A DNA stretch of 33,383 bases from an uncultured Geobacter sp. GTDB lineage: Bacteria > Desulfobacterota > Desulfuromonadia > Geobacterales > DSM-12255. The stretch is taken from positions 1-33,383 of the forward strand of contig CALMOE010000296.1 of NCBI GenBank assembly GCA_937871715.1. Reading direction: 5' to 3'. The translations under genes were made by a program, and so were the position numbers. Every line of letters begins with the position of its first letter. The first letter of the stretch is position 1. Below are positions 6,781 to 33,284 of this stretch, one piece after another. The notes beneath the pieces are model-generated. The model saw only the letters and a program-made list of their open reading frames with translations, searched no databases and was not told where the DNA came from.

Positions 6781-7842
6781 ATGTCCGATCACGACAAGAG
6801 CTCAAAAACCGAACAACCCACCGGCAAGCGGCTGGATGATGCCAGGCGGAAGGGTAACGTGCCGCGCAGTCAGGAGGTGACCACCATCGTCACCATCCTG
6901 GCTGCCGCGGCTGCTCTCTATTTCGGCGGCGGTTTCATGCTGTCGGTACTGAAGCAGAGCAGCAGGGAGCTTTTTGCCTCCCTGAACCCTGCACAGGTGA
7001 CCGAGGCGGGAGTATACTCCCTGATGCTCAAGACCTTTGCAACCCTTGCCCTGGTTCTGCTCCCCTTCCTCCTCATCCTCTGCTGTGTGGTCCTGGCTGC
7101 CAATGCCTGCCAGGGTGGGATCGTCATGGCAGGCGAGAGGCTTGCCATCGACCCTGCAAGACTGAACCCCGTCAACGGGATAAAGAGGGTCTTCAGCGGC
7201 GAATCGGCTTTCAACGTGCTCAAGTCCCTGTTGAAAACCGTCATTGTCGCTTACATGGCTTACAGGACCATGCGGGGCGAACTGGATGAGATCGTCTCCC
7301 TGACAGGAGACGTGCAAGGGATCGCCAGCTTCATCTGTTCCATATCGTTCAAGCTGGTTTTCCAGATTTGCGGGGTGATGATCGTCCTTGCGGTGCTCGA
7401 CGCCGTGCATGTCAGGTGGCAGCACAGAAGCAACCTGAGGATGACCAAGCAGGAGGTCAAGGATGAGTACAGGGAGACCGAGGGGGATCCGAAGGTCAAG
7501 GGGAGGATCAAGCAGCTCCATTTTGAGAGGGCCAGGCGGAGATTTGCCAGGGTCGTTCCTCAGGCTGACGTGATCATAACAAACCCGACCCATTATGCCG
7601 TGGCACTCAAGTACGATCGCGACAAGATGTGGGCGCCGGTTGTCCTGGCGAAGGGGGCCGACCACCTGGCGCTGAAGATCAGGGAGATTGCGCGGCAGAG
7701 CGGGGTGACCATTGTGGAGAACCGGTTCCTGGCGAGGGAGTTGTACGCCAAGGTGAAAGAGGGTGAGGAGATCCCGGAGGCGCTCTATACCGCAGTGGCT
7801 GAGGTGCTTGCCTATGTCTACGGCCTTAAGGGCAGGGTCTAG
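6781..7842 (+). CDS. flhB: Flagellar export switch protein FlhB
   Basis: FlhB is the substrate-specificity switch of the export apparatus and cleaves itself after FliK signals hook completion. The 353-residue protein starts with the family motif KTEQPTGKRLDDARRKGNVPRSQEV. It has four membrane helices (about 33-210) and a cytoplasmic domain with the autocleavage motif NPTH at residues 268-271 (ADVIITNPTHYAVALKYD). The C-terminus EIPEALYTAVAEVLAYVYGLKGR is canonical. It is the last gene of the run; its stop codon shares bases with the convergent cheB stop in the tetranucleotide CTAG. Confidence 0.97.
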   Translation: MSDHDKSSKTEQPTGKRLDDARRKGNVPRSQEVTTIVTILAAAAALYFGGGFMLSVLKQSSRELFASLNPAQVTEAGVYSLMLKTFATLALVLLPFLLILCCVVLAANACQGGIVMAGERLAIDPARLNPVNGIKRVFSGESAFNVLKSLLKTVIVAYMAYRTMRGELDEIVSLTGDVQGIASFICSISFKLVFQICGVMIVLAVLDAVHVRWQHRSNLRMTKQEVKDEYRETEGDPKVKGRIKQLHFERARRRFARVVPQADVIITNPTHYAVALKYDRDKMWAPVVLAKGADHLALKIREIARQSGVTIVENRFLARELYAKVKEGEEIPEALYTAVAEVLAYVYGLKGRV

Positions 7843-8897
7843 GCGGCGAGCTTGATTATCTCCCTGCCGATTATCTCCAGGGGGAGCACTGAGTCCGCAA
7901 CCCCCCCCTCCACGCATGCCCTTGGCATGCCGTAGATGGTGGAGGTTGCCTCGTCCTGTACCAGGGTGATGCCACCCATCTGCTTCAGGTGCTGCATCCC
8001 CTTGAAGCCATCGCTCCCCATCCCGGTGAGGATTACGCCGAGCATTGCACCGCTGCATGCATCGCTGAGGGTGCGCATCATCAGGTCTATGGACGGGATA
8101 TAGATAAACTGCGGATTGGACTCGGCTGGAGATGTGGCGGCAACGATCTCCCCCTGCTGCCGGCTGAAGGATGTATGCATCCCCCCCGGGCAGATAAGGA
8201 CCCTGCCCGGCCGAAGCTGGTTGCCGTTCTCAGCCTCCAGTATCTCCAGGGGGCATTTTGCATTAAGGTGCGCGGCATAATGCCCGGTGAAGAGTTTAGG
8301 CATATGAATCCCGGCGACTATGGGGTGTGAAAAGCTGGACGGAATATTGGCAAGCACCTTCTGCAACGCCATTGGCCCCCCGGTGGAGGCTCCAATGGCA
8401 ATGGCAGTTATTCTGCCACTCTCCAGAGTCTCAGTATTGGCCAGCGCCTCCCCGAGAAGCGATGTGGACCTGATCATGCCGATCTGATTGCTCAACCCTT
8501 TTACCTTGCGCAGCAGTTCGGCCCGGAAAAACTTAGCCTGCCATGATGTGCCATCGGGGCTTTTTGGGATGAAGTCGACCGCGCCGGACTCAAGCGCCTC
8601 CATGGTAACCATCGCCCCCTCCCTCGTCTGGGTGGAAACCATGAGTACATGGGTGGGGCATTTCGCCATGATCTCCTTCAGCGCGGTGATGCCATCCATG
8701 CGCGGCATCTCGATGTCCATGGTTATCACTTCCGGCTTCAGGTGGCAGGCCTTTTCCACTGCCTCAATGCCGTCGACAGCCGTTCCAACCACCTCGATGT
8801 CAGGGTCGCTCGCCAGGGTTGAGCTGATGGCCAGCCTCATGAAAGCCGAATCATCAACCACCAATATCCTTGTCTTCCCCCTTACTGCTCTGTTCAT
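7839..8897 (-). CDS. cheB: Chemotaxis response regulator protein-glutamate methylesterase CheB
   Basis: CheB removes methyl groups from, and deamidates, chemoreceptors when phosphorylated by CheA, giving adaptation. The 352-residue protein has a receiver domain (about 9-125) with acidic residues D15/D16, phosphoacceptor D61 (TMDIEMPRMDG) and K112. The methylesterase domain (about 160-350) carries the triad S171 (IGASTGGP), H198 (GIHMP) and D296 (GMGSDGFKGM). ATG at 8897 follows GAGGG. It is the last gene of the minus-strand che run and ends against flhB. An eight-C run lies at 7901-7908 (G8 in the coding sense). Confidence 0.97.
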   Translation of the reverse strand: MNRAVRGKTRILVVDDSAFMRLAISSTLASDPDIEVVGTAVDGIEAVEKACHLKPEVITMDIEMPRMDGITALKEIMAKCPTHVLMVSTQTREGAMVTMEALESGAVDFIPKSPDGTSWQAKFFRAELLRKVKGLSNQIGMIRSTSLLGEALANTETLESGRITAIAIGASTGGPMALQKVLANIPSSFSHPIVAGIHMPKLFTGHYAAHLNAKCPLEILEAENGNQLRPGRVLICPGGMHTSFSRQQGEIVAATSPAESNPQFIYIPSIDLMMRTLSDACSGAMLGVILTGMGSDGFKGMQHLKQMGGITLVQDEATSTIYGMPRACVEGGVADSVLPLEIIGREIIKLAA

Positions 8898-8909
8898 GGC
8901 GCCCTCGTG

Positions 8910-9803
8910 TCATGTCCCTACGAATATGTACGTTACCATCTCACGTATCTCAGGTACCCTGTCGTCCAGTTCAAAGCAGAACTTCTCCGCGTCGAAGTTC
9001 AGCCTGTTAGGGGTGAAGTCCTCGATAATCCGCCACCCCTCCTCCTCGGCCAGGTTGAAGCTGATCCACTCCCTGCCGCCGTAGTCGAGCCCCCTCACCG
9101 AACAGAAGAGGTCGGCCAGGTTGATGATGGCCGCCAGCAGCGGCTCGAGCGGCGCTTCGCGGGGGGCATGGTGATGTTCGATGACTTCGCAGTACTCCTG
9201 GGGGAAGTTCCATTTGTTGGCAATGCAAAGCCCTATGTGGCAGTGGGTTGTGCCGATGAGACGCTCCTCCGAAGCGATCCACCTCAGTGGCTCGGATGCA
9301 ATGAGGTCGAGTATCTCCTGGAGCGTTTCCTTCATGTAGTAGCTGAGGAATACTTCGCCGATGTCGTGGACAATACCCGCCAGATATGCTTTTTCAATTT
9401 CCGGGAAGCGGATGCGCTGGGCAATTATGCGCGCGACGATCCCAACCCCAAGGGAGTGTTCCCAGAATGTCTTGATGTCGAATGCGCCGTTCTTGTCGCG
9501 AAATACATCGATTATTGAGCAGGTCATGACTATCTCGCGAATGTGGCGGAACCCAAGGTAGGTGAGGGCATGTCTGACCGAGTTGATCTCATGACGGGGC
9601 CTGTAGAGTGGCGAGTTGACCATCTTGATGACCCTGGCCGCAAGTACCTGGTCGGACAGGATCATGTCGACGATGGTGTCCATTTCCGCGTCGAAGCTGT
9701 TCAACAGCTTCAGTATCTTGGCAGCCACTGTCGGGATAGTGGGGAGGTCGACGCAATCCCTGACCAGCGCCTGGGCTTTTTGCATCATCGGGCTGTTTTC
9801 CAT
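8910..9803 (-). CDS. HDOD-domain protein of the chemotaxis operon
   Basis: HDOD proteins are non-classical relatives of HD phosphohydrolases that often act in signalling; the molecular role is usually unknown. The 297-residue protein has an HDOD domain over about 14-215: DLPTIPTVAAKILKLLNS, LSDQVLAARVIKMVNSPLY, LGFRHIREIVM, WEHSLGVG (H116), GIVHDIGEVF (H146, D147), a CHIG segment and IEHHHAP. A further 80 residues have no recognised domain. ATG 9803 is chosen because AGGAAG sits 7 nt before it; the frame is open to a TTG at 9824 that would overlap cheR. It lies between cheR and cheB, 4 bp and 12 bp away, so it is co-translated with the adaptation enzymes. Confidence 0.85.
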   Translation of the reverse strand: MENSPMMQKAQALVRDCVDLPTIPTVAAKILKLLNSFDAEMDTIVDMILSDQVLAARVIKMVNSPLYRPRHEINSVRHALTYLGFRHIREIVMTCSIIDVFRDKNGAFDIKTFWEHSLGVGIVARIIAQRIRFPEIEKAYLAGIVHDIGEVFLSYYMKETLQEILDLIASEPLRWIASEERLIGTTHCHIGLCIANKWNFPQEYCEVIEHHHAPREAPLEPLLAAIINLADLFCSVRGLDYGGREWISFNLAEEEGWRIIEDFTPNRLNFDAEKFCFELDDRVPEIREMVTYIFVGT

Positions 9804-9807
9804 GTTC

Positions 9808-10683
9808 TCACTTCCTATAGGCAAATCCGCCAGGGAAATGGACCGTCTTGAATCTGTCGTTCACTCCGTGCAGCGATTCCGATTGTCCGACAAAGAGATA
9901 TCCGTAGGGGAGCAGATTATTGTAAAAATGTTGCACGACCTTCGCCTTTGACGACTCGTCAAAGTAGATGAGCACATTGGCGCAGAAGATGAAATCGAAG
10001 CTTTTCATGAAAACCATCCTGCTGTCATCGTACAGATTCAGATGGGAGAAGGTGACGAGCTTTTTAACCTCCTGGGAAAGAACGTATCGCTCCGGATTTT
10101 CCTCCAGGAAGTATTTCTTCCGGTAGTATTCCGGCATGTTTCGCACCGCGTAGCCGTTGAATATCCCCTCCCGCGCCTTGGCCAGTATGGTTTCATTTAT
10201 ATCGGTACCGATCACCTCCACGGTCCACCCCTTGAGGATTGTGGCCATCTTCTCCAGAAGGATCATTGCCAGGGTGTAGGGCTCTTCGCCGGAGGAGGTT
10301 CCCGCGCTCCAGACCCGGATCTTGCGGAAGCCGATTTTCTGCTTTGCCTCAACGATCTCCGGCAGGAACCTGTTCTCCATGGCGCTCAACTGGGGCATGA
10401 TGCGGAAAAAGCGGGTCTCCGTGGTTGTCAGTTCATTGAGAAGGTGGCGCAGCTCCTCCTTGCCGCGCACCCCGTCACGCAATAGCTTGCCGTATTCCTC
10501 ATGGCTTTTGATCCCTGTTGCGCACATGCGGCGGGAGAGGCGGTTTTCCAGGTAATATTTTTTGCTGGCATTCATGTATATGCCGCAGTGACTGTAGATG
10601 AAATCCCTGATCATCTCGAAATCAGCATCTGAGATTTTTACGGATGCCGATCCCTGTCCCATCTGGCAATTGCTTGAGATCAT
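9808..10683 (-). CDS. cheR: Chemotaxis protein methyltransferase CheR
   Basis: CheR methylates glutamates of chemoreceptors using S-adenosylmethionine. With ATG 10683 it has 291 residues. The N-terminal helical domain holds ISDADFEMIRDFIYSHCGIYMNASKKYYLENRLSRRM. The SAM-binding domain holds NELTTTETRFFR, the motif RVWSAGTSSGEEPYTLAMIL, then EVIGTDINETILAKAREGIF, a DFIFCANVLIYFDE motif and a C-terminal GYLFVGQSESLHGV. Ribosome sites are weak; ATG 10662 (MGQGSASVK) is an alternative start. It follows cheA by 7 bp. Confidence 0.95.
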   Translation of the reverse strand: MISSNCQMGQGSASVKISDADFEMIRDFIYSHCGIYMNASKKYYLENRLSRRMCATGIKSHEEYGKLLRDGVRGKEELRHLLNELTTTETRFFRIMPQLSAMENRFLPEIVEAKQKIGFRKIRVWSAGTSSGEEPYTLAMILLEKMATILKGWTVEVIGTDINETILAKAREGIFNGYAVRNMPEYYRKKYFLEENPERYVLSQEVKKLVTFSHLNLYDDSRMVFMKSFDFIFCANVLIYFDESSKAKVVQHFYNNLLPYGYLFVGQSESLHGVNDRFKTVHFPGGFAYRK

Positions 10684-10690
10684 ATGCAGC

Positions 10691-12448
10691 TCACATGGCC
10701 TGCATTCCCGGCAGGTACGAACCATCATAGCCGCCGATAAGCCCAACCGGGTCTACGATGAGGGCCACCTGGCCGTCCCCCAGGATCGTGGAGCCGGCGA
10801 ATCCTGGGATGGTGCCCAGGTATCTCCCCAAGGACTTGATGACCACCTCCTGTTGGCCGAGAAGTCTGGAAACCACCAGGCCGAGCCTCCTCTCCGCCGC
10901 ACCAACAACCACGACGTAGCAGAAAAGCTTCTCCCCGGCGTCATCATCGTTGTTGAACAGCCTGTCCAGTTTTAAAAGAGGCAGAATCTCTTCCCTCAGC
11001 CTGAGCACCTCCTGGCCGCCTACCCGGTGGAAGCTGCCGTTCTCTACCCGGAGAGTCTCCAGAACCGACGATAGGGGGATGGAGTATGTTTCCTTGCCAA
11101 CGCCCACGAGGAGCGTCTGGATGATGGCCAAGGTGAGTGGTAGCCTGATGATGAACTCCGTGCCGCTGCCGACCGTGCTCCGTACTTCGATGATGCCGTT
11201 CATTTTTTTAATGTAGGTCTTCACCACATCCATCCCCACCCCCCGTCCGGAGATGTCAGAGGCGGTCTCCTTTGTGGAAAAGCCGGGGAGGAAGATCAGG
11301 TCCAGGATTTCGCGTTTACCCATGTTGGCCAGCTGAGCCTCTGTCACGACCCCTTTTTCCAGGGCTTTTTGGCTCACCTTTTCGTGATCGATGCCGCGAC
11401 CGTCATCCTTGATGCGTATGACTATATGATTCCCTTCGTGCTCGGCTGAAAGGACCAGAGCCCCCCCGGCGGTCTTTCCGTTGGCAATCCGCTCGTCGGG
11501 CCTTTCCAGGCCGTGGTCGAGGGCGTTGCGGACCAGGTGGACGAGTGGGTCTCCCAGCTCTTCAAGGATCGAGCGATCCAGTTCGGTCTCTTCTCCAACG
11601 AGATGCAACTCAACCTCTTTGCCAAGGTCCCTGGCAAGGTTGCGGACTATGCGGGGAAATTTCCTGAAAATCTTTTCCACCGGAATCATGCGCATCTTCA
11701 GGACCTGCATCTGCAGTTCGCTGGTGATGTAGTTCATTCTTTTCGAGAGGCTGTTGAACTCACGGACAAACTCCAGCCTGTTCACCCCGTTCTGCTGTTC
11801 GCTGCTGAGCTGCAGCATCCTGTTTCGTTCAAGTACCAGTTCCCCCACTTGATTCATGAGATCATCTAGCCTTTTGACATCTACCCTGACGCTGGCACTC
11901 TCGGAGCTCTCATCGCTCCTTGGCTTCCCTGCAGCTTCAGCTGGCGTTTCTGTGGTGGCCGGCTCCCGGATGGCCGTTTCCACGGGTGGGGGATTCTCCC
12001 TTGCCACCTCGCATGTCGCGGTAGCCTCCTTTTTCAGGCAGCTTGCCTCCCCGGAGTTGTCGGAGAGGAAGGGGCTCAGTTTGCCGATGGTCTCCTCGAC
12101 CGGGCGATCCCGCAACTCCCCCTCCGCTATGTCGTTTACCAGCAGCTTTACAAGGTCAGCCCCCTCCAGGATCACATCCATGATCTCGCTTGTCAGCAGC
12201 AGGTCACCCTTGCGGAGCCTGTTGAGCACATCCTCTATTTTGTGGGTTACCTGGACCAGCAGCTCGAAGCCGAGAAAGCTGGAGGTCCCTTTCACGGTAT
12301 GGATCGAGCGGAAAACCCTGTTGAGGAGCTCATTGTCCCGGGGGCTCTTCTCCAGGTTCACCAGGTCGTCGTCGAGTTTTTGCAGAAGTTCGGTGGATTC
12401 GGTGACAAACCCCTCCAGCAACTCCTGATCTTCGCATTCCAGTTTCAT
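10691..12448 (-). CDS. cheA: Chemotaxis histidine kinase CheA
   Basis: CheA autophosphorylates in receptor arrays and passes phosphate to CheY and CheB. The 585-residue protein has an HPt (P1) domain at about 1-110 with phosphorylated H50 (FRSIHTVKGTSSFLGF). A Pro/Thr/Ala-rich linker spans about 130-185. The dimerisation helices run about 187-255. The ATPase domain runs about 260-435, with N-box HLVRNALDHG, DDGRGID and GRGVGMDVV. A CheW-like domain covers about 437-585. No recognisable P2 (CheY/CheB-docking) domain is seen between P1 and P3, which makes it shorter than E. coli CheA (654). ATG 12448 has AGGAG 6 nt upstream; the frame extends to a TTG at 12454. Confidence 0.96.
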   Translation of the reverse strand: MKLECEDQELLEGFVTESTELLQKLDDDLVNLEKSPRDNELLNRVFRSIHTVKGTSSFLGFELLVQVTHKIEDVLNRLRKGDLLLTSEIMDVILEGADLVKLLVNDIAEGELRDRPVEETIGKLSPFLSDNSGEASCLKKEATATCEVARENPPPVETAIREPATTETPAEAAGKPRSDESSESASVRVDVKRLDDLMNQVGELVLERNRMLQLSSEQQNGVNRLEFVREFNSLSKRMNYITSELQMQVLKMRMIPVEKIFRKFPRIVRNLARDLGKEVELHLVGEETELDRSILEELGDPLVHLVRNALDHGLERPDERIANGKTAGGALVLSAEHEGNHIVIRIKDDGRGIDHEKVSQKALEKGVVTEAQLANMGKREILDLIFLPGFSTKETASDISGRGVGMDVVKTYIKKMNGIIEVRSTVGSGTEFIIRLPLTLAIIQTLLVGVGKETYSIPLSSVLETLRVENGSFHRVGGQEVLRLREEILPLLKLDRLFNNDDDAGEKLFCYVVVVGAAERRLGLVVSRLLGQQEVVIKSLGRYLGTIPGFAGSTILGDGQVALIVDPVGLIGGYDGSYLPGMQAM

Positions 12449-12502
12449 CTGCAACTCCTGAAGGGGGGTGGTTGGCCATCGGTTCGTCGGACTGTGCAGA
12501 AG

Positions 12503-12973
12503 CTATTCTTTCATGATGCCCCGCTCTTCAGAGCCGATCAGCTTGTCCAGATCAAGCATGATCAGCAGCCTCTCACCCCTGTTGATCACCCCCGAGACGC
12601 ACTCCTGCTGGACTCCTGCGCTGATCGCCGCAGGGGGGGGGAGAATCTCGGCCTCTGCCACGCGCAGCACCTCGGAAACCGAATCGACTATGAACCCCAT
12701 CAGCTCGCCCGTTACGTCAACCACCATGGTGCGTGTCCGTCTGCCGTTCTCGCTACCGTCCAAATTGAACCTCTTGCGCAGGGATACGAGGGGGATAACT
12801 TTGCCGCGAAGATTCATCACCCCCTCCACATACGTGGGGGTGTTCGGCACGCGTGTCACCTCCGGCATCCGCAGTATCTCCATGATCTTCAGCACCGGTA
12901 TGGCGTACTCTTCCCGGTCCACGCTGAAGCTGACCAGCTGGGTCATCTCTCCTGCTACGTCGTTAAGGCTCAT
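12503..12973 (-). CDS. cheW: Chemotaxis coupling protein CheW
   Basis: CheW couples chemoreceptors to CheA. ATG 12973 gives 156 residues of one CheW/SH3-like domain: QLVSFSVDREEYAIPVLKIMEILRMPEVTRVPNTPTYVEGVMNLRGKVIPLVSLR at about 12-66, then GFIVDSVSEVLRV and the C-terminal GVINRGERLLIMLDLDKLI. The open frame continues upstream to 13105, but AAGGGGG lies 7 nt before 12973 and the earlier residues do not match the family. It is the first gene of the che run, 54 bp before cheA. A nine-G run on the plus strand (12633-12641) encodes Pro-Pro-Pro in the loop EILPPPAA. Confidence 0.95.
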   Translation of the reverse strand: MSLNDVAGEMTQLVSFSVDREEYAIPVLKIMEILRMPEVTRVPNTPTYVEGVMNLRGKVIPLVSLRKRFNLDGSENGRRTRTMVVDVTGELMGFIVDSVSEVLRVAEAEILPPPAAISAGVQQECVSGVINRGERLLIMLDLDKLIGSEERGIMKE

Positions 12974-13004
12974 CTGGATTCCCCCTTTGTTTCCTTGATA
13001 GTTA

Positions 13005-13031
13005 ATATCGGCAGCCAACGGCAAAAGTTGA
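13005..13031 (-). promoter_or_regulatory. Sigma-28 (FliA) promoter of cheW-cheA-cheR-HDOD-cheB
   Basis: Read on the minus strand: TCAACTTT-N11-GCCGATAT. Against the enterobacterial FliA consensus TAAAGTTT-N11-GCCGATAA it matches 13 of 16 bases with exact spacing. The start site would be near 12998, about 25 bp before the cheW ATG. Confidence 0.7.
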
Positions 13032-13100
13032 GAGATTTTTACTCCCGACTTAACTCTCTTCGGGCAGGGCAAGATTATCGTGACGTGGTTGCAATATTGT

Positions 13101-13114
13101 GTCATATGATTGAC
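13101..13114. promoter_or_regulatory. FleQ-like box overlapping the regulator gene's own promoter
   Basis: GTCATATGATTGAC, a third GTCA-N6-TGAC dyad. Its last five bases are the first five of the putative -35 hexamer TTGACA (13110-13115), a position expected for repression, so autoregulation by the protein at 13174 is a reasonable inference. Confidence 0.5.
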
Positions 13115-19126: not shown

Positions 19127-19870
19127 ATGAACGGTTTTGTGAAAATTTATGAACGCGAGGCCCAGCGGGGCTTGGTGGGGGACAGGGATGAGCTTGTCCT
19201 TTCCCATCTCCCCCTGGTCAGATTCCTGGTGGGTAGGATGGCAAACCAGCTGCCATCCCATGTGGATCAGGACGAACTGGTGAGTGCCGCCTGCCTGGGA
19301 CTGATCCAGGCTGCACGTCGATTCGACCCCGCTCGCGGGGTAAAGTTCAAGACATTTGCCGAACAGCACATCAAGGGGACCATCATTGATGAACTGCGCG
19401 CTCAGGACAGGCTTTCAAGGCCGTTGCGGGGCAAGTTCAAGCGACTGGAGAGCGAGTTTGCCGTCCTTGAGCAGAAGCTTGGCAGGACACCGAACGGCGA
19501 GGAGGTGGCCGCTGCCATGGAGATCCCGATTGAGGAGTATCACCAGCTCCTCAAGGAGGTCCACTGCTTCACCTTCACCAGCCTGGACGACAACTGTGGC
19601 GACAATGAGGGGAGCCTGCTCGACATAATCGAGGACAAGGGGGTGGGAACCCCTCAGGAGCAGATGATCTCCCGGGAGATGCTCGATGGGCTTGCCGCGG
19701 CGATTGAGGCATTGCCAGAGAAGGAGCGGCTGGTGATAACCCTCTATTACTATGAAGAGCTGACACTGAAGGAGATCGGCGAAGTGATGAACCTTACCGA
19801 GTCGCGCATCTCCCAGTTGAACAGCCAGGCGATCATCCATCTGCGAGCCATCATGAAATCCCATGTCTAG
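19127..19870 (+). CDS. fliA: RNA polymerase sigma factor FliA (sigma-28)
   Basis: FliA directs transcription of late flagellar, motor and chemotaxis genes. The 247-residue protein has the region-2 core ELVSAACLGLIQAARRFDPARGVKFKTFAEQHIKGTIIDELRAQDRLSR, region 3 (LEQKLGRTPNGEEVAAAMEI) and region 4 with the helix-turn-helix LTLKEIGEVMNLTESRISQLNSQAIIHLR. ATG 19127 is preceded by TTGGAG. Candidate target promoters with TAAA-N15-GCCGA-like sequence occur in this window before cheW, flbD and the flagellin. Its anti-sigma factor FlgM is encoded at 24429. Confidence 0.96.
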   Translation: MNGFVKIYEREAQRGLVGDRDELVLSHLPLVRFLVGRMANQLPSHVDQDELVSAACLGLIQAARRFDPARGVKFKTFAEQHIKGTIIDELRAQDRLSRPLRGKFKRLESEFAVLEQKLGRTPNGEEVAAAMEIPIEEYHQLLKEVHCFTFTSLDDNCGDNEGSLLDIIEDKGVGTPQEQMISREMLDGLAAAIEALPEKERLVITLYYYEELTLKEIGEVMNLTESRISQLNSQAIIHLRAIMKSHV

Positions 19871-24738: not shown

Positions 24739-25233
24739 ATGGGCACGGCAATAGCAAATCTCGCGGCCATGCTTGCTGCCAAAGGGGAGGCGATGGATCG
24801 GCTGCTCTCCCTGCTGGACAACGAATGCCGCCTGGTTACCAGTCTCGACATGGGGTCACTGGCTGAGAACGACTGCCAGCTGGAGTCCCTGCTGCAAGAG
24901 ATAGCGCTGCTCACGCGCCGGTGTCGCCAGCAGCTGCGTGCCGCGGCAGCCGACAACGGTCTCCTCCCGGAGAGCACCTTCAGCCAGTTGCTGGACAGGG
25001 TAGATCCCCATGAGCGGGATGAGCTGGGGAGATTGCGTGAGAGGCTCTTTTGTCTCGGGGCAGAGTTGCAGCGCCGCGTTGATGTGAGCAGCGCCATTCT
25101 TGGGAAATCGCTAGCATCCGTTGGCCGCTCCATCACGCTCATGACTAAAGGCTTGAACCCGGCTGCCACATATGGCGAGGCCGGCAGGATGGTGACGGGG
25201 ACAGGTTTCGGCATTTACCGCAAGGAAATATAA
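24739..25233 (+). CDS. flgN: Flagellar export chaperone FlgN
   Basis: FlgN is a cytoplasmic chaperone for the hook-filament junction proteins FlgK and FlgL, encoded immediately downstream. The 164-residue protein is predicted all-helical, with the family pattern LLSLLDNECRLVTSLDMGSLAENDCQLESLLQEIALL at about 21-57, and it ends ...GTGFGIYRKEI. Sequence conservation of FlgN is low, so position between flgM and flgK is part of the evidence. The stop overlaps the flgK ATG (TAATG). Confidence 0.88.
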   Translation: MGTAIANLAAMLAAKGEAMDRLLSLLDNECRLVTSLDMGSLAENDCQLESLLQEIALLTRRCRQQLRAAAADNGLLPESTFSQLLDRVDPHERDELGRLRERLFCLGAELQRRVDVSSAILGKSLASVGRSITLMTKGLNPAATYGEAGRMVTGTGFGIYRKEI

Positions 25234-26696
25234 TGAGCATTGAAAATATTCTCAACATCGCTTCAACGGGGATCATGGCCCAGCGGGTGGCAATCGAGGT
25301 CACCAGCGAGAATATCGCCAATGTGAACACCCCCGGCTATTCGCGCCAGAGGGTGGTGATGCAGAGCTCCCTGCCGATCAGTACCGGCGGTTTTGGCGGA
25401 GGGGTTCTTGTCGAAGGCGTGCAGAGGAGTTACGACGGCCTGCTGCAACAGCAGATCGTCAGTGGCAGCAGCGATTACGCCAACAGCCTTGCCAGGCAGA
25501 GTGCCCTGCAGGAGGTAGAGCCGCTTTTCAACGAATTGACAGGTAGCGGGCTCGGCCAGGCGATGGATGACTTCTTCAACTCCTGGCAGGACCTTACCCT
25601 GAACCCCCAGGGTTCTCCGGAGCGTCAGGCCCTGCTGACCAGCAGCCAACTGATGGTTGACCGTTTCCGGCAGCTGAATGCCTCCCTCGTCAGGATACAG
25701 TCGGCCGCGGATTCGTCCCTGTCGGGAATCGTCGATTTCATCAATGACAAGGCGGAGAGTATCGCCCGGTTGAACGGCCAGATACTGCAGGCCGAACAGC
25801 TCGGGGTTAATGCCAACGAACTGAAGGACAATCGTGATTATCTCCTCCAGCAGCTTGGTGAGAAGGTCGGCATATCCTTCAGCCAACAGACGGACGGTAC
25901 GGTAGCCGTCTCCCTCCCCGGCGGGGAGCCGCTTGTTGCAGGGATTCAGTATGCATCACTCTCCATAGTTTCGGTTGCCACAACCGGGTCAAATCTGCCC
26001 AATCCGGCCAACTCCATACATGTCACCGCCATCGGCAATCCGCCCCCCGCTCCCCAGGGTACGGATGCGGACATTACCCAGAGCGTGGGTGGGGCGGATA
26101 ACTCCAAGGGGGAGATGGGCGCCGCTCTCTATGTCCGGGATCTCCTGATCAAGGGGTATCTGGACAAGCTGGACGCCATGGCGAAGACGATGGTCACCGA
26201 GGTCAATGCCAAGCATAATCTCGGCTACGGACTTGACGGCAGCAGTGGCGATTTCTTCGATCCAGCCGGCATTACCAGCGCCAGCATAGCTCTTTCCACC
26301 GGTTTCAGCGCCGCCAAGATCGCCGCTGCCGGCCCTCTGCCGGCCCCGGCAGGCGTGGACCCCGGAAACAACGTCAATGCGCTGGCCATGGCCGACCTGA
26401 AGACAAAGGTGGTCGATTTTGTCGTGGGAGGGGTGACATCCTCAACCCAATTCGGCACTTTCCAGAATATCTTTGTCAGCGGAGTGGGGAGTGACCTGCA
26501 GAGCGCTAAGAATACCCAGCAACAGGATGATGGTTATTTAAGGCAGCTGAAGTTGATGCGCGAATCCATCTCCGGGGTTTCCATAGATGAAGAGATGACG
26601 AACCTGATCAAGTATCAGAGGGGATTCGAAGCTTCCGCCCGGCTGGTTTCAGTTGCCGGCGAGATGTACGATGCCGTGCTGGCCATGCTGCGCTAG
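25233..26696 (+). CDS. flgK: Hook-filament junction protein FlgK (HAP1)
   Basis: FlgK is the first junction protein between hook and filament. The 487-residue protein starts ILNIASTGIMAQRVAIEVTSENIANVNTPGYSRQRVVMQ. It has the FlgK segment LGQAMDDFFNSWQDLTLNPQGSPERQALLTSSQ at about 107-139 and ends SGVSIDEEMTNLIKYQRGFEASARLVSVAGEMYDAVLAMLR. The central domain is variable, as in the family. It is translationally coupled to flgN, and flgL follows after 11 bp with GGAGGAG. Confidence 0.96.
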   Translation: MSIENILNIASTGIMAQRVAIEVTSENIANVNTPGYSRQRVVMQSSLPISTGGFGGGVLVEGVQRSYDGLLQQQIVSGSSDYANSLARQSALQEVEPLFNELTGSGLGQAMDDFFNSWQDLTLNPQGSPERQALLTSSQLMVDRFRQLNASLVRIQSAADSSLSGIVDFINDKAESIARLNGQILQAEQLGVNANELKDNRDYLLQQLGEKVGISFSQQTDGTVAVSLPGGEPLVAGIQYASLSIVSVATTGSNLPNPANSIHVTAIGNPPPAPQGTDADITQSVGGADNSKGEMGAALYVRDLLIKGYLDKLDAMAKTMVTEVNAKHNLGYGLDGSSGDFFDPAGITSASIALSTGFSAAKIAAAGPLPAPAGVDPGNNVNALAMADLKTKVVDFVVGGVTSSTQFGTFQNIFVSGVGSDLQSAKNTQQQDDGYLRQLKLMRESISGVSIDEEMTNLIKYQRGFEASARLVSVAGEMYDAVLAMLR

Positions 26697-26707: not shown

Positions 26708-27628
26708 ATGCGTGTCACACCCGGAATGACGGCGGATAACGCCCTTTATTATCTGCAGCAGGGGAGGCTGGGCCTGGACCAGGTCCAGGAGAAGATCGCC
26801 AGCGGGAACAACATCAACAGGCCGTCAGACGATCCCATAACCACCAGGCAGCTCCTGGACCTGAGCTCGCAGATCAGATCCTGGGAGCAGTTCGGCGACA
26901 ACATAAAGAGTGGCAACATCTGGCTGAATGTAACCAACACTGCCTTGACCGCCATCCGCGCGATGATCTCCCAGGCAAAGAGCATTGCTGGCAGCATATC
27001 CAGCGGCAGCAGCGACGCAACCTTGCGCAACAGTGTAATATCCCAGCTGAGAGGCTTGAAAAGCCAGTTGGTTGACCTTGGCAATACCCAGTTGGGGGAT
27101 CGCTATATCTTCGCCGGGTTCAAGAACAGTATCCCCCCATTTGTTACCGGCAGCGATCCAGATCCCCTCTCCGCAACTTTCACCCCGGTGCAGTTTGTTG
27201 GAGATAACCAATCCCCTGTCATCGAGGTGGGGGAGGGGCTGACAGCTTCGATCGCCACAGCCGGAGGGGAGCTGTTGTCCGGCAGTTCCGGTGGTACCGA
27301 TGTCCTGGCGGTCTTCGATCGCCTTATTCAGGCAATCTCCGCAAACGACGCTACTGCCATCAATACCGAGGCGAAAGGGTTGGATGCAGCTGCAACTCAG
27401 GTGGACGATGCCATCAGCAGGGTTGCCGGGAAATTGCTTCTCCTCAAGAATGCCGAGGAGGTCAATACCGGGAATATCAATACTCTGAAAAATGTCATTG
27501 GTGACAGACAGAACGTCGACTACGCCATGGCGGCTACCGTCCTGAGCCAACAGCAGACGGCCTTCCAGGCGGCGTTGTCGACGACTGCCAAGATATCCCA
27601 GCTCTCTCTCCTCGACTATTTGAAATAG
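26708..27628 (+). CDS. flgL: Hook-filament junction protein FlgL (HAP3)
   Basis: FlgL is the second junction protein, directly below the filament. The 306-residue protein has the flagellin-like N-terminus (RVTPGMTADNALYYLQQGRLGLDQVQEKIASGNNINRPSDDP), the FlgL motif QLVDLGNTQLGDRYIFAGFKNSIPPF and the C-terminal helix YAMAATVLSQQQTAFQAALSTTAKISQLSLLDYLK. GGAGGAG precedes the ATG. It ends the long plus-strand operon. The usual csrA/fliW genes are not found after it. Confidence 0.96.
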   Translation: MRVTPGMTADNALYYLQQGRLGLDQVQEKIASGNNINRPSDDPITTRQLLDLSSQIRSWEQFGDNIKSGNIWLNVTNTALTAIRAMISQAKSIAGSISSGSSDATLRNSVISQLRGLKSQLVDLGNTQLGDRYIFAGFKNSIPPFVTGSDPDPLSATFTPVQFVGDNQSPVIEVGEGLTASIATAGGELLSGSSGGTDVLAVFDRLIQAISANDATAINTEAKGLDAAATQVDDAISRVAGKLLLLKNAEEVNTGNINTLKNVIGDRQNVDYAMAATVLSQQQTAFQAALSTTAKISQLSLLDYLK

Positions 27629-27765: not shown

Positions 27766-28029
27766 ATGATCAGACTTACACGTTTTGATTCAACGGTGAT
27801 GTATCTCAACCAGGATCTTATCGAGATAATCGAAGAAGTGCCGGAAACCCACATCACCCTGACGAATGGGAACCGTTATCTGGTACTTGAGTCGGTCAGG
27901 GCGATAATCGATAAAATCCTGGCGCAAAAGGTGATGATCAACTCCCGGGCCTCATGCCGTTCGGGGAAAAAATACCTGCTGAGGAGATTGAAGGGGGGGG
28001 CTCCCTTTTGCAGGTTTGACTGGGGTTAA
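27766..28029 (+). CDS. flbD: Flagellar protein FlbD family
   Basis: This is the small FlbD family found beside motA in many bacteria (not the Caulobacter NtrC-like regulator of the same name); its exact role is uncertain. The 87-residue protein matches over residues 1-50 (MIRLTRFDSTVMYLNQDLIEIIEEVPETHITLTNGNRYLVLESV). The tail (about 55-87), with two Cys and many Arg/Lys, is longer than usual. An eight-G run at 27993-28000, nine codons before the stop, could slip and replace the last residues. GGAGG lies upstream of the ATG, and motA follows after 41 bp. Confidence 0.85.
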   Translation: MIRLTRFDSTVMYLNQDLIEIIEEVPETHITLTNGNRYLVLESVRAIIDKILAQKVMINSRASCRSGKKYLLRRLKGGAPFCRFDWG

Positions 28030-28070
28030 TCTCCTTGACAACATCCTTCTACTAATCTGGCGGGACCTTT

Positions 28071-28862
28071 ATGGATATTGCCACAATCATAGGGCTTTTA
28101 TTGGGGTTTGGCGCCGTAATAGGCGGGCAGGTGCTGGAGGGTGGCAGGATTGCCGCCATCCTGCAGCCAACTGCTGCCCTGATCGTACTCGGTGGTACTT
28201 TCGGTGCCACGTGTGTCAGTTTCCCCCTAAGTGGGATCATCCAGGCATTCAAAAGCATCAGGAAAGTGCTGTTCATCTCCAGCGACAACCCGGAAATTCT
28301 GCTTAAGGATATAATCAGTTACGCCACAAAGGCGAGGAAAAACGGTCTTATCTCCCTGGAGCAGGAGGCGAAGAGTGCCAGGGACGTCTTTACCCGCAAG
28401 GGTATATCCATGGTGGTTGACGGCATCGATCCGCAGAAGCTGCGCGACACAATGGAGGTGGAGCTGGCGGTTTTCGAAGAACATGAGAAGCTCAGCGCCG
28501 AGATATTCGAAGCCGCCGGCGGTTACGCGCCAACAATCGGCATAATCGGCGCTGTTCTGGGTCTGATTCATGTAATGGAAAACCTGTCGGACTCCTCCAA
28601 GCTGGGGGAGGGGATAGCGGTTGCCTTCGTGGCGACCATCTACGGGCTTATGACCGCCAACATCGTCTGCATTCCTTTCTCCTCCAAGCTGAAGCAGCGC
28701 CTGAAGCACGATATCCAGAAGCGGGAAATGGTCATAGAGGGGCTGATCTCCATCCAGAACGGGGAGAATCCACACTTCATCGAACAGAAGCTCCGTGCCT
28801 ATCTGCAGGAGAGCGGCGCTGCGGAGAAGAAGGGGCAGCCAGCCGAGAAGAAGGGGAAATAA
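28071..28862 (+). CDS. motA: Motor stator protein MotA
   Basis: MotA pentamers surround a MotB dimer and convert ion flow into torque on FliG. The 263-residue protein has four membrane helices (about 3-22, 30-55, 150-172, 182-204). Between helices 2 and 3 lies the large cytoplasmic loop that contacts the rotor. The family signature is AAGGYAPTIGIIGAVLGLIHVMENL at 148-172. The Lys-rich tail ends immediately before motB (stop TAA at 28860-28862, motB ATG at 28863). The coupling ion cannot be assigned safely from sequence alone. Confidence 0.95.
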   Translation: MDIATIIGLLLGFGAVIGGQVLEGGRIAAILQPTAALIVLGGTFGATCVSFPLSGIIQAFKSIRKVLFISSDNPEILLKDIISYATKARKNGLISLEQEAKSARDVFTRKGISMVVDGIDPQKLRDTMEVELAVFEEHEKLSAEIFEAAGGYAPTIGIIGAVLGLIHVMENLSDSSKLGEGIAVAFVATIYGLMTANIVCIPFSSKLKQRLKHDIQKREMVIEGLISIQNGENPHFIEQKLRAYLQESGAAEKKGQPAEKKGK

Positions 28863-29636
28863 ATGGCGAGAAAGAAAAAGCCCGAGAAGGAGCCGAACCT
28901 GGAGAGATGGCTGGTTTCCTATGCCGACTTCATTACCCTGCTGTTCGCAGTCTTTGTGACCCTCTACTCCATGGGGCAGACGGACAAGAAGAAGGTGGAT
29001 CAGTTGATCATCTCCCTGCGAGAATCCTTCAACTACAGCCGGCCAGGCTCCACCCCGAGGCCCGCCCTTGTCGACACCGGGGACGTCCGTGTCGTGCCGT
29101 CCCTCCATCCCGAAACTATTGCCCCCCAGGAGGAGAAAAGGGGGGCAAAGGTGCATGCTGAGTCAAAGGACTTCCAGAGAATTAAAAGCTCCATGGATTG
29201 GTATCTGGCGAAGCATGGCGGCCATGACAAGGTAAGCGTGGAGATAACCCGGCGTGGATTGGTGGTAAGTCTCAAGGAGGCGGGCTTCTTCGATTCGGGG
29301 AGCGCAATAGTGCGCAGGGACTCCCTCCAGCTCCTGGCCAAGGTTTCGGAGTCTTTGCGCGACTACAAAAATGCCATCAGGGTCGAGGGGCACACGGATA
29401 ACGTGCCGATCAACATCCCCCCCTTTCATACCAATTGGGAGCTATCGACCGCCCGGGCCACCAATGTGGTCAGGTATATGATTGACAGGTACGGTTTCGA
29501 GCCGAAGCGTCTCTCCGCCATCGGTTATGGCGAATTCAGGCCAATTGTGGATAATGGCACTTCGGAGGGGAGGACCAAGAACCGCAGGGTGGATCTTGTC
29601 CTCATGTCGAGGGAGAACGAGAAGGGGGAGCCTTAG
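28863..29636 (+). CDS. motB: Motor stator protein MotB
   Basis: MotB anchors the stator to peptidoglycan and carries the ion-binding aspartate. The 257 residues have a basic N-terminus and one membrane helix (about 18-37) with the essential D22 in SYADFITLLFAVFVTLYSM. A plug/linker follows (about 41-110), then an OmpA-like peptidoglycan-binding domain (about 135-250; RVEGHTDNVPIN, LSTARATNVVRYMI, GYGEFRPI, NRRVDLVL). It ends 4 bp from the convergent PilZ gene, with no terminator between them. Confidence 0.96.
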   Translation: MARKKKPEKEPNLERWLVSYADFITLLFAVFVTLYSMGQTDKKKVDQLIISLRESFNYSRPGSTPRPALVDTGDVRVVPSLHPETIAPQEEKRGAKVHAESKDFQRIKSSMDWYLAKHGGHDKVSVEITRRGLVVSLKEAGFFDSGSAIVRRDSLQLLAKVSESLRDYKNAIRVEGHTDNVPINIPPFHTNWELSTARATNVVRYMIDRYGFEPKRLSAIGYGEFRPIVDNGTSEGRTKNRRVDLVLMSRENEKGEP

Positions 29637-29640
29637 TGGA

Positions 29641-30435
29641 TCACTCCTGGCGGATCCTTTTCTGCAGGCTGTTGCGCTGTTCCATGAAAATGTAGGCTAT
29701 GATCGCCTCCCTCTCCTTGGCATCGATGAGATGAAACTTCATGGCGGTGCTGTACAATGTATCCCTTTCCCAACTGAGCTCCTGCTCCTTCACCCTGAGA
29801 ACCTCACCAACAGCGTTGATTACCCGGGTCGGGTTCATCGGGAGGAAGATCTCCAGGTCGAGGATGGTGTCTGTTTCCAGGCGCTCCTTGATCATGATCC
29901 GTAAGCCGCCACCACTGAGGTTCACCCACATGGGGAGTATCTCTTCAGTGCCGTTCCACCTGACTATCTTCTGCCCTTTCTCCCAAGGTACGGTTACCGG
30001 CAACGCCTTGTTCCCGGTGAGCAGCCTGCTTGTATACCACTTCTCTTCGGTACTGGCGCGATCTCCGTTCGTGGGGATTTTATAGCGCAGGGGGATAAAA
30101 ACATCGAAGCGGAAATACTCTCGCTGCTGCTGCTCCGTGACCGGGCCTTGAAACCTGAAGAATAGATCACGTGCGGCATCTCTTTTCTCCAGGACCATGT
30201 GACAGCGGCAGTGGGCCCAGCTGCCGATGGTGCTGATGATCGCCTCTCTACCTGCCTCAATTCTCAAACCATGGGGAAGATCCTTGTAAAGCTTGAGGTG
30301 AATCCTGTCGTTTTCAATGGATATGATTTCAGCATAGTCGCTGAACATGTTGTCGCCAGCCAGGTGTAAGCCGAACCTTACCTCCATGCCAGCGTTGAAG
30401 AAATTTTTATACTCAGTAGAGCTGGTTATAATCAC
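29641..30435 (-). CDS. PilZ-domain protein, YcgR-like (putative c-di-GMP-responsive motor brake)
   Basis: PilZ proteins of the YcgR type bind cyclic di-GMP and slow or bias the motor through MotA/FliG. From GTG 30435 it has 264 residues: an N-terminal YcgR-like domain (about 10-100) and a C-terminal PilZ domain with both c-di-GMP motifs, REYFR (RxxxR) and NLSGGG (N/DxSxxG). GTG 30435 is preferred because AAGGAA lies 7 nt upstream. A GTG at 30495 (284 residues) is also open but has its purine run too close. Its place next to motB supports a motor role; this is inference. Confidence 0.82.
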   Translation of the reverse strand: MIITSSTEYKNFFNAGMEVRFGLHLAGDNMFSDYAEIISIENDRIHLKLYKDLPHGLRIEAGREAIISTIGSWAHCRCHMVLEKRDAARDLFFRFQGPVTEQQQREYFRFDVFIPLRYKIPTNGDRASTEEKWYTSRLLTGNKALPVTVPWEKGQKIVRWNGTEEILPMWVNLSGGGLRIMIKERLETDTILDLEIFLPMNPTRVINAVGEVLRVKEQELSWERDTLYSTAMKFHLIDAKEREAIIAYIFMEQRNSLQKRIRQE

Positions 30436-30537
30436 TGGCAGATTCCTTAAGGGGAGTTCCGCGGTTTCCCGCGTCCCTGCATCAATCCCAGCCACTCACC
30501 CTGGATTTGCTGGCGGGGTGGCACGTCAACGCTTCCA

Positions 30538-30677: not shown

Positions 30678-30704
30678 TAAAGTTATCGCCGTTTAGGTCG
30701 ATGA
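30678..30704 (+). promoter_or_regulatory. Sigma-28 (FliA) promoter of the flagellin gene
   Basis: TAAAGTTA-N11-GTCGATGA, 13 of 16 bases like the FliA consensus with exact spacing. The start would be near 30711, giving a leader of about 142 nt. Confidence 0.75.
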
Positions 30705-30720: not shown

Positions 30721-30852
30721 AGAAATCTCGGTCTGGAAAGGGGGGTGAGTCATTAAACATAGATCGCTTTGAGGTATTAGGGGCGTTATGTCAGCAGTAC
30801 AACCAAGAACTTCGGCAAGAAAGCCGAAAATACCTAGAAAAGGAGAAATACC

Positions 30853-32349
30853 ATGGCAATCAACGACATTTCATTGACAGCGGGCATGCGTAACAACCTC
30901 CTGGCACTGCAGGGGACAGCGGCTGCATTGACCCAGACCCAGGACAGATTGAGCAGCGGCAAGAAGGTCAACAGCGCTCTCGACAACCCCACCAACTTCT
31001 TCTCTGCCCAGTCCCATCTGCAGAGGGCTTCCGACCTGGCCGACCGCAAGGACGGCATGTCCGAGGCGGTGCAGACGGTAAAGGCTGCCAATGCCGGCAT
31101 ATCCGCCATTACGGCGCTGGTTCAGGCGGCCAAAGGTCTGGTCAGCTCGGCCCTCGGTACGACCGACACGTCAACGCGGGCTAATTACTACGACCAGTTC
31201 AACACCCTGCGCGGACAGATCGACACCCTGGCCAACGACTCAAGCTACAAGGGTACCAATCTCCTCAAGTCGGACAAGCTGACGGTGCAGTTCAGCCAGA
31301 ACACCAACGATGCAACCCTGTCAATCACCGGTTTCGACGCCAGCACGAGCTCCACCGGCCTGGGGATCCTCGTGGCCGGCGGCTCCACCGCATCCATCGC
31401 CAGTGCGACTACGGCCAGTACCAGCCTGACCACCGCCGCACAGGAGCTGAATGACCTGGCGGCTGTTGCCCTTGGCGGCGCCGCAGCCAAGACAGCCCTG
31501 ACAACAGCGGCCACCGCCCTGGCAGCCGCCTCCAACGGCACCGTAACTTCAGTGACCGCAGCCGACGCCCTTGCGGCAACTAACGCCGCCACGGCAGCCG
31601 GCGTGGCCATGTCCGCTGCCTGTAGGAACGGCGATGTCGCCTCCTACAACAAGCTGTCCGCCGCCCAGACCGCCCTCACCACTGCCGCTGCCGCCATCAC
31701 CAGCGCCATGAGCGATACCTCAGGTGCTAAAGCAGCTTCCGCTTCCGCCACCACTGCGGCCAGCACCCTCGGTACGGTCAGCGCCATACTGACAACCTCC
31801 AGCCTCACCGCGGTACAGAGTGCCGCAACCCAGGCAACCAGTGACGCCGCCACCGCCCTGGCAGCCGGCGACGACACCATAAGTGCAGGCCTTACCTCGG
31901 CTGCCGCCGCATTGACCAGCGCTTACAACGCCCTGAGCGTAGGTGCCTCCAGCGCGACGGCAGCTACCTCGACCGCCGCCACCAGTGCCGCAAGCGATGC
32001 AACCACAGCAGCCAATGCGGTCAAGGGGAGCGCAGCCCAATGGGACGATGCAGATGCAACCATTGGAGCAGCAGCCATCAACACCACCTCATCCCAGCTG
32101 GACGGCGCCCTGACAAAACTCAGGACACAGTCGTCAGTGCTGGCATCCAGCCTTTCGGTCATCACAACCAGGCAGGACTTCACTTCGTCCATGATCAACA
32201 CCCTACGGCAGGGGGCGGACAACCTGACCCTGGCGGATATGAACGAAGAGGGGGCCAACATGCTGATGCTGCAGACCAGGCAGTCTCTCAGCACCACGGC
32301 ACTCAGCCTCTCTTCCCAGGCAGCACAGTCGATACTCAAACTCTTCTAG
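30853..32349 (+). CDS. fliC: Flagellin with a long Ala/Ser/Thr-rich central domain
   Basis: Filament subunit. The 498 residues have the conserved D0/D1 N-terminus (about 1-165; LQGTAAALTQTQDRLSSGKKVNSALDNPTNFFSAQ) and C-terminus (about 410-498; TLADMNEEGANMLMLQTRQSLSTTALSLSSQAAQSILKLF). The middle (about 178-396) is dominated by Ala, Thr and Ser in helix-like runs; it contains the only Cys (C257) and is probably the surface-exposed, variable part. That composition is compatible with O-glycosylation, which is not shown. AAAAGGAG lies 8 nt before the ATG. flbT and flaF follow. It is the only flagellin in the window. Confidence 0.95.
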   Translation: MAINDISLTAGMRNNLLALQGTAAALTQTQDRLSSGKKVNSALDNPTNFFSAQSHLQRASDLADRKDGMSEAVQTVKAANAGISAITALVQAAKGLVSSALGTTDTSTRANYYDQFNTLRGQIDTLANDSSYKGTNLLKSDKLTVQFSQNTNDATLSITGFDASTSSTGLGILVAGGSTASIASATTASTSLTTAAQELNDLAAVALGGAAAKTALTTAATALAAASNGTVTSVTAADALAATNAATAAGVAMSAACRNGDVASYNKLSAAQTALTTAAAAITSAMSDTSGAKAASASATTAASTLGTVSAILTTSSLTAVQSAATQATSDAATALAAGDDTISAGLTSAAAALTSAYNALSVGASSATAATSTAATSAASDATTAANAVKGSAAQWDDADATIGAAAINTTSSQLDGALTKLRTQSSVLASSLSVITTRQDFTSSMINTLRQGADNLTLADMNEEGANMLMLQTRQSLSTTALSLSSQAAQSILKLF

Positions 32350-32356
32350 GGAGAGG

Positions 32357-32384
32357 AGGGGGGGAGGGGAGATCCTCCCCCCCT
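32357..32384 (+). terminator. GC-rich stem-loop after flagellin, without T-run
   Basis: Arms AGGGGGGGAGG (32357-32367) and CCTCCCCCCCT (32374-32384) with a 6-nt loop, 8 bp after the flagellin stop. The absence of a T-run means termination would be weak at best. It could protect the flagellin mRNA 3' end and lower flbT/flaF expression. Confidence 0.45.
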
Positions 32385-32441
32385 CTGCAGTAATGCAGAT
32401 CATCACAGCCACCATTGAACTTTGCGAGGGATTTAAGCGTT

Positions 32442-32831
32442 ATGGCTCTGACACTTGTCCTCAAGCCCCATGAACGGATGATCATCGGCGGAGCCGTAAT
32501 GAAGAACGGCAGCAGGACCACCGAATTTTCCGTGGAGAACACCGTCTCCATCCTGCGCGAAAAGGACATCATGTCCGATAGCGAGGCGATCACCCCGTGC
32601 AGGCGGATATATTTCGTGATTCAGCTGATGTATGTGGATAGCGGTTGTCTCTCCGAGTATATGGCCATGTTCCGTGAACTGACAGAAGACGTTGTCAGCG
32701 CCGCTCCGAGTACAATCGATTATATCGAACGGATAACCGATCTTACTTCGGACGGCAAGTACTACCAGGCGCTCAAGCTGGCCAGGAAACTAATAAACTA
32801 CGAAGAGGAGCTACTTAAACATGTTCACTAA
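32442..32831 (+). CDS. flbT: Flagellin post-transcriptional regulator FlbT
   Basis: FlbT, best known from Caulobacter, binds the flagellin mRNA leader and represses or adjusts its translation and stability. ATG 32442 gives 129 residues with the family pattern MALTLVLKPHERMIIGGAV, NGSRTTEF, VSILREKDIM and CRRIYFVIQLMYV, then an all-helical C-terminal half. The frame is open upstream to a TTG at 32415, but the family start matches 32442 and GAGGGA lies before it. The end overlaps the flaF start by 11 bp. The flagellin leader at 30711-30852 is the likely target. Confidence 0.9.
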   Translation: MALTLVLKPHERMIIGGAVMKNGSRTTEFSVENTVSILREKDIMSDSEAITPCRRIYFVIQLMYVDSGCLSEYMAMFRELTEDVVSAAPSTIDYIERITDLTSDGKYYQALKLARKLINYEEELLKHVH

Positions 32832-33222
32832 CCCGTACAATACCTATCAGCGCATCAACAAGGAGCAGATGTCGTCCAGGGAGCTCGAGGCTTCAATCCT
32901 TAACAAGGCCGGTGCGATGCTGAAGCGGTGCCAGGAACACTGGAACGATACAGACCGGGACGCGAGGCTGGATGACGCCTTGAAGTTCAATCAGAAGATC
33001 TGGAGCTTTTTCCAGGCCGAATTGATTGATCCGGAAAACCCCCTCCCCATGGAGCTGAAGTGCAGCATCCTGAACCTGAGCCTGTTTATAGACAAGTCCA
33101 TCTACGATATCATGGCCTATCCGGAGGCTGACAAGCTGACGCCGATCATCGACATCAACCTGAACCTGGCCGCTGGCCTGTTCGCCAGGGTTGACGATAC
33201 TGACGTGGAGAAAGCCGCCTGA
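32821..33222 (+). CDS. flaF: Flagellar biosynthesis regulator FlaF
   Basis: In alphaproteobacteria FlaF acts opposite to FlbT and promotes flagellin translation or secretion, possibly as a flagellin chaperone. The 133-residue protein starts NPYNTYQRINKEQMSSRELEASILNKAGAML and contains DALKFNQKIWSFFQAELIDPENPLPMELKCSILNLSLFIDKSIYD, the conserved FlaF pattern (N-x-x-L-W-x-x-F and L-x-x-N-I/L-L-S-L-F). It is translationally coupled to flbT by overlap and followed by a terminator. Confidence 0.9.
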   Translation: MFTNPYNTYQRINKEQMSSRELEASILNKAGAMLKRCQEHWNDTDRDARLDDALKFNQKIWSFFQAELIDPENPLPMELKCSILNLSLFIDKSIYDIMAYPEADKLTPIIDINLNLAAGLFARVDDTDVEKAA

Positions 33223-33258: not shown

Positions 33259-33284
33259 AAGAGCCCCCTGTTACGGGGGCTTTT
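33259..33284 (+). terminator. Rho-independent terminator after flaF
   Basis: Stem AAGAGCCCCC (33259-33268) and GGGGGCTTTT (33275-33284) with loop TGTTAC; the 3' arm ends in a T-run. It closes the flagellin-flbT-flaF unit. Bases 33285-33383 show no further gene. Confidence 0.85.

Follow-up and report, generated by a model that had tools for sequence, protein, structure and literature searches.

Filament modules in Geobacterales are probably exchanged together with their flagellin regulators, and tandem AGAA-loop hairpins are the proposed target of FlbT

FlbT has been known for decades as a regulator of flagellin, and in Caulobacter it binds the 5' leader of flagellin mRNA according to work cited in a 2015 review (PMC4347634). 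The review lists no recognition motif for FlbT and calls the mechanism unresolved; studies of the Caulobacter fljK leader (Anderson and Gober 2000; Ardissone 2020) may describe such an element. In Caulobacter, FlaF acts as a chaperone for the secretion of flagellin (PMC7591256). A different system, CsrA-FliW-flagellin control, is represented in Geobacter sulfurreducens by its csrA and fliW (PMC13407953) and in sister species fills the place after flgL; in G. sulfurreducens CsrA also controls biofilm and electron transfer (PMC11934962).

The window analysed here, a whole stretch of 33,383 nucleotides from an uncultured Geobacter sp. (contig CALMOE010000296.1), carries flagellin, flbT and flaF at 30853-33222. 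This succession, which an earlier note had read from the sequence, is genuine, as the matches to PF00669/PF00700, PF07378 and PF07309 demonstrate (Table 1). The Flagellin_N match of the first ORF has an E value of 4.5e-14, and the FlbT match, at 140 bits (cut-off 27), spans the full domain (profile positions 1-125 of 125), alignment with relatives giving the ATG at 32442 as the best start. An AF2 model of FlbT (pLDDT 93.4) consists of five N-terminal strands and a four-helix C-terminal bundle. The flbT and flaF genes overlap by 11 bases, and 161 bases separate the end of flaF from the end of the window. The GC hairpin between flagellin and flbT may act as an mRNA stabiliser or attenuator and possibly sets the ratio of flagellin to FlbT. 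A possible sigma-28 type promoter precedes the flagellin leader region, and a FliA gene lies in the same window at 19127-19870. As the same note had remarked, csrA and fliW do not follow flgL; the first ORF there, at 27766-28029, belongs to the FlbD/SwrD family (PF06289) and is followed by motA and motB, these genes filling the slot held in the other type by csrA-fliW-flagellin-fliD-fliS.

Table 1. Features of the flagellin-flbT-flaF region of the window
Feature	Position	Strand	Basis
flgK, hook-filament junction protein; segregates with filament type	25233..26696	+	PF22638; tree
flgL, hook-filament junction protein; segregates with filament type	26708..27628	+	PF00669 N domain, position; tree
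flbD/swrD-like ORF, motA, motB	27766..29636	+	PF06289, MotB_plug; comparative layout
PilZN1-PilZ protein, divergent from flagellin	29641..30495	-	Profile match
Possible sigma-28 type promoter, TAAAGTT ... GTCGATGA	30678..30704	+	Read from sequence; inference
Leader element R1, two tandem AGAA-type loop hairpins before flagellin	30809..30855	+	Covariance model R1, 57.2 bits, E 1.8e-13 in own genome
Hairpin 1, UUCGGC-AAGAAA-GCCGAA	30811..30828	+	Predicted fold, z -2.7; covariation across 43 sequences
Hairpin 2, CCU-AGAAA-AGG	30833..30843	+	Predicted fold; arm shuffle
Flagellin, FlbT-associated type, 498 aa, long Ala/Thr/Ser-rich middle	30853..32349	+	PF00669 + PF00700; flagellin tree
Very stable GC hairpin between flagellin and flbT	32356..32385	+	Fold, -39 kcal/mol for 61-nt stretch, z -4.1
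flbT	32442..32831	+	PF07378, E 3.5e-41
flaF	32821..33222	+	PF07309, E 1.8e-31
Terminator-like hairpin with U run, 3' of flaF	33259..33284	+	Sequence and fold

Two further observations concern gene content. Within the flagellar cluster of the window, between flhB and flhA, the minus strand carries cheB, an HDOD gene, cheR, cheA and cheW (7839-13105). Most FlbT loci hold an uncharacterised protein of ~200-230 aa in the gap between flagellin and flbT (consensus IVKNYPPFPxxSxERxxLLxSYxSLRKEI...PPPP; examples at L164:7131-7805, L138:8147-8764 and L150:7714-8382), counted in 34 Geobacterales loci and in 59 loci of the named-genome set, many of them from other phyla. It is missing from the gap of the window (32350-32441), was found in no CsrA-type locus, has no Pfam, NCBIfam or PDB match and may be a filament assembly factor of the FlbT module.

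A search of the whole source genome, 97% complete in 304 contigs, found neither csrA nor fliW, and FliS and FliD were likewise not found across it. Comparison with 58 relatives identified FlbT in 39, and CsrA and FliW in the same 8, with no genome combining FlbT with either; for the 49 relatives that have FlhA this amounts to 39 with FlbT only, 8 with CsrA and FliW only, 2 with neither and 0 with both, and the 9 relatives without FlhA have neither system. If genomes are taken as independent, which they are not, all 8 CsrA genomes would land in the 10 lacking FlbT with a probability of 1e-7; many of the genomes are MAGs. Seven of the 8 CsrA genomes have FliS and 6 have FliD, and neither protein occurs above its family cut-off in any FlbT genome. 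Given that FliS and FliD accompany CsrA only, the swap exchanges the filament end of the flagellum together with its regulators. Across 277 genomes of the class, FlbT is found in 89, all within the order Geobacterales, and CsrA in 82-83 (82 over the cut-off), in one of them together with FlbT. Outside the order, CsrA is present in 67 genomes of the class, none of which has FlbT, and the CsrA system therefore looks ancestral for the class.

The one genome of the 277 in which FlbT and CsrA coexist (G221) has an intact but short csrA between flgL and flbD and a full flagellin-flbT-flaF set ~12 kb away, and looks like a transitional state; a similar short csrA lies beside an FlbT-type flagellin at a contig end in G212. 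These two short CsrA proteins (L177:1302-1454 in G221, L134:5375-5533 in G212) lack the C-terminal tail seen in the FliW-linked CsrA of the order and have no fliW alongside, and another FlbT-type locus (L067) has a csrA at 4373-4600 with a different tail of its own. One CsrA/FliW genome, G052 (L130, L205), has no fliD, fliS or nearby flagellin; its FlhA groups with another family, for which reason it was dropped from the counts as a within-genus switch, and it is possibly a whole-cluster exchange or a binning error.

Two gene orders accompany the two regulators: flgK-flgL-csrA-fliW-flagellin-fliD-fliS in the CsrA type, and flgK-flgL-flbD-motA-motB with flagellin-flbT-flaF nearby in the FlbT type. 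The trees of these genes conflict. In the FlhA tree both types are mixed within three genera, the CsrA/FlbT label changes 8 times, and a single clade of the CsrA type is rejected by an AU test (p-AU 4e-69), while the flagellin tree splits almost cleanly by type into two groups ~10 changes per site apart. The label changes 7-8 times in the trees of FlgI, FlgH and FlgJ, 4 times for FlgN, and once each for FlgK, FlgL and flagellin, although the FlgK tree places the CsrA member G037 and the mixed member G212 weakly. Given that the number of changes falls from 7-8 through 4 to 1 along the cluster, the exchanged unit appears, from these trees, to start around flgK and so to take in the hook-filament junction as well. 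Four independent switches lie on well-supported branches, and in all of them flagellin type and fliD change together. Within the FlbT genomes, flagellin distances follow those of FlbT (rho 0.545; 0.55 given FlhA) and not those of FlhA (rho 0.01; 0.014, p 0.44). FlaF is intermediate, its distances being weakly related to flagellin (rho 0.18) and more strongly to FlhA (0.41), which indicates that the module was not always moved as one block; several genomes have flagellin-flbT-flaF at some distance from flgL, and in a few flaF lies elsewhere. FlbT and FlaF are short proteins and their trees are weak. The earlier note had proposed that one post-transcriptional system replaced the other and that flagellin was transferred as part of a module, and this is strongly supported by the alternation in the 49 flagellate relatives, the conflicting trees and the agreement of flagellin with FlbT distances. 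The replacement is not, however, peculiar to this genome: it recurs across the order, extends to FlgK, FlgL and the leader RNA, and is accompanied by loss of both FliS and FliD.

The same note held FlbT and FlaF to be mainly alphaproteobacterial, which proved too narrow: both are widespread in Geobacterales and other phyla, and 444 relatives of the source FlbT occur in named genome contigs. The best 80 of these 444 include records of Geobacterales, Nitrospirota, Desulfobacterota, betaproteobacteria, Bacteroidota/Ignavibacteria and Gemmatimonadota; in nearly all of these 80 loci flagellin adjoins flbT, and the FlbT-type profile gives all of these flagellins far higher scores than the CsrA-type profile does. 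Since FlbT/FlaF was described in alphaproteobacteria, an alphaproteobacterium could conceivably have supplied the flagellar cluster in its entirety. This is very improbable: alphaproteobacterial FlbT is 28-40% identical to the source protein, against 46-70% for relatives in the order and in other phyla, and falls almost wholly outside the source group; the alphaproteobacterial order is flagellin-flaF-flbT rather than flagellin-flbT-flaF; and the FlhA of the f3 FlbT genomes sits among the CsrA-type FlhA of the same genera. Nor is a recent transfer of FlbT from alphaproteobacteria supported, the source FlbT not being nested in the alphaproteobacterial FlbT of a tree that has long alphaproteobacterial branches and weak resolution. 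That FlbT is common in the order agrees with another explanation, in which FlbT and FlaF are old and vertically inherited and the CsrA genomes arose by differential loss from an ancestor with both systems, and the csrA beside a full flagellin-flbT-flaF set in G221 indicates that both can be carried for a time. The earlier note had allowed that FlbT and FlaF might prove both common and vertical, and the first half of this stands. Vertical descent is nevertheless improbable, given the lack of any relation between flagellin and FlhA distances within the FlbT genomes, the (weak) grouping of the FlbT of some Geobacterales with other phyla and the distribution of CsrA outside the order; moreover, with flagellin groups so far apart, the ancestor would need both filaments and both sets of FlgK and FlgL. 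It is scarcely credible that the missing csrA, fliW, fliD and fliS reflect an assembly gap: the source genome is indeed in 304 contigs, but five FlbT genomes reported as one contig each (G018, G022, G031, G033, G043) also have none of the four. The exchange of one filament module for another on an otherwise retained flagellum, with each mRNA bearing the target of its own regulator and FlbT proposed to read AGAA, is considered the likely explanation for Geobacterales.

The flagellin leader of the window folds, by prediction, into exactly the two hairpins of element R1, and the 3' side of hairpin 2 is part of the Shine-Dalgarno sequence AAGGAG (30840-30845). Comparison of 43 leaders gives 86% pairing over the structure, against at most 54% when the structure is slid, and two-sided changes in 35 cells, where shuffling gives 10.3 (0 of 500); every one of the 35 lies in helix 1. 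Hairpin 2 is short and its changes are mostly one-sided; as MAFFT puts its loop one base off between two leader classes, it was tested by its own arm shuffle, in which pairing was 2.33 against 1.41 (0 of 2000). Of 96 leaders, 77 have AGAA as a loop (0.8 in shuffles) and 0-3 have control loops; the motif precedes 35 flagellins out of 40, and it is absent before all 234 other flagellar gene starts. When model R1 was run on 58 whole genomes, all matches of at least 35 bits that were read or placeable were flagellin leaders, those of second, unlinked flagellins among them; the best non-flagellin match (33.9 bits) lies before a hemC-like gene in G039, and R1 also gives ~25-34 bits ahead of unrelated genes that have AAAGGAG-like sites. 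Several f4 leaders have another loop in the hairpin nearest the Shine-Dalgarno sequence, and their AGAA hairpin lies upstream of it. A search of the FlbT-type leaders against Rfam gave no match at the gathering score of any family. Several Geomonas genomes (L286, L287, L288, L297, L298) have a second, unlinked FlbT-type flagellin with an AGAA leader of its own.

Flagellins beside flaF-flbT in Rhodobacterales and Azospirillum belong to another flagellin group and also have AGAA hairpins, in 9 of 9 leaders (0.1 in shuffles), 6 of the 9 having two (0 in shuffles). These hairpins were found by eye and tested by shuffling, model R1 not detecting the alphaproteobacterial leaders. The leader element is thus conserved and covarying, matches no Rfam family and spans several phyla, alphaproteobacteria included. 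Alphaproteobacterial flagellins near very divergent FlbT (L303, L247, L255) show other loops in their leader hairpins, for example ACAA in Methylorubrum, and may thus use a changed code. In the CsrA type, all 11 leaders read combine a GGA-loop hairpin with CANGGAGG at the Shine-Dalgarno sequence, the known layout of CsrA sites. With AGAA leaders accompanying FlbT and GGA leaders accompanying CsrA, the code in each flagellin mRNA matches the regulator of its genome, and the cis element thus swaps together with the trans regulator. It could be argued that the hairpins are a general feature of strongly translated flagellin mRNAs, acting in standby or stability or being bound by some other protein, given that hairpin 2, a short one, shares sequence with the ribosome binding site and that the link to FlbT comes from sequence comparison. 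This is unlikely, if less so than descent with differential loss: the element tracks the regulator, CsrA-type flagellins of the same genera having GGA hairpins; AGAA hairpins recur beside flaF-flbT in the different flagellin family of alphaproteobacteria; and the review cited above refers to work placing FlbT on the 5' leader in Caulobacter.

From this association it is inferred that the AGAA loops are the binding site of FlbT. In the proposed mechanism, the FlbT module, which comprises a flagellin of a distinct family, FlbT, FlaF and matching FlgK and FlgL without the cap FliD and the chaperone FliS, takes the place of the alternative csrA-fliW-flagellin-fliD-fliS module. FlbT would bind both AGAA loops of the flagellin leader as candidate sites and, given that the second hairpin holds the Shine-Dalgarno sequence, could control translation or stability of the message in one direction or the other. 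FlaF would act as flagellin chaperone instead of FliS and couple this control to flagellin export; we infer such a substitution for Geobacterales, and the absence of FliS alongside FlbT is consistent with it. That FlbT reads tandem AGAA hairpins across phyla, and that filament module, regulator and RNA code are jointly swapped for the CsrA/GGA module, is favoured on balance, with less assurance than the exchange within Geobacterales. The five-strand pattern of the FlbT N domain and its invariant Arg (R39) resemble CsrA, and in a weak profile comparison (E 0.018-0.09, probability under 3%) none of 100 column shuffles reached the global score; when structures were searched with the full AF2 model, and again with just the N domain, no CsrA was listed and no match was significant. 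If the proposal is true, FlbT and CsrA, proteins without a demonstrated relationship, share one arrangement of two sites on flagellin mRNA.

With an element that is conserved, covaries and has a fixed loop, the recognition of flagellin mRNA by FlbT becomes directly testable in a model organism, and the alternation with CsrA/FliW indicates that translation control is replaceable together with its target and the structure controlled. Given that CsrA is missing from many related genomes, results on CsrA in G. sulfurreducens are not simply transferable to species that use FlbT. Like the Rfam leader families, the element is a cis-regulatory RNA beside a start codon, and it differs in that none of them reaches its gathering score. 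The FlbT/FlaF system of Caulobacter crescentus and Brucella (PMC4347634, PMC7591256, PMC8781033) is similar in having both protein families beside flagellin and the flagellin mRNA leader as the proposed target of FlbT. It differs in phylum and flagellin family and, in the alphaproteobacterial loci read, in the order of flaF and flbT; tandem AGAA-loop hairpins are proposed here as the candidate binding element. CsrA-FliW-flagellin control in Bacillus and Campylobacter (PMC4894983) likewise pairs a leader site in the loop of a hairpin with a second one at the Shine-Dalgarno sequence, but its loop code is GGA instead of AGAA, and FliD, FliS and another flagellin family come along with it.
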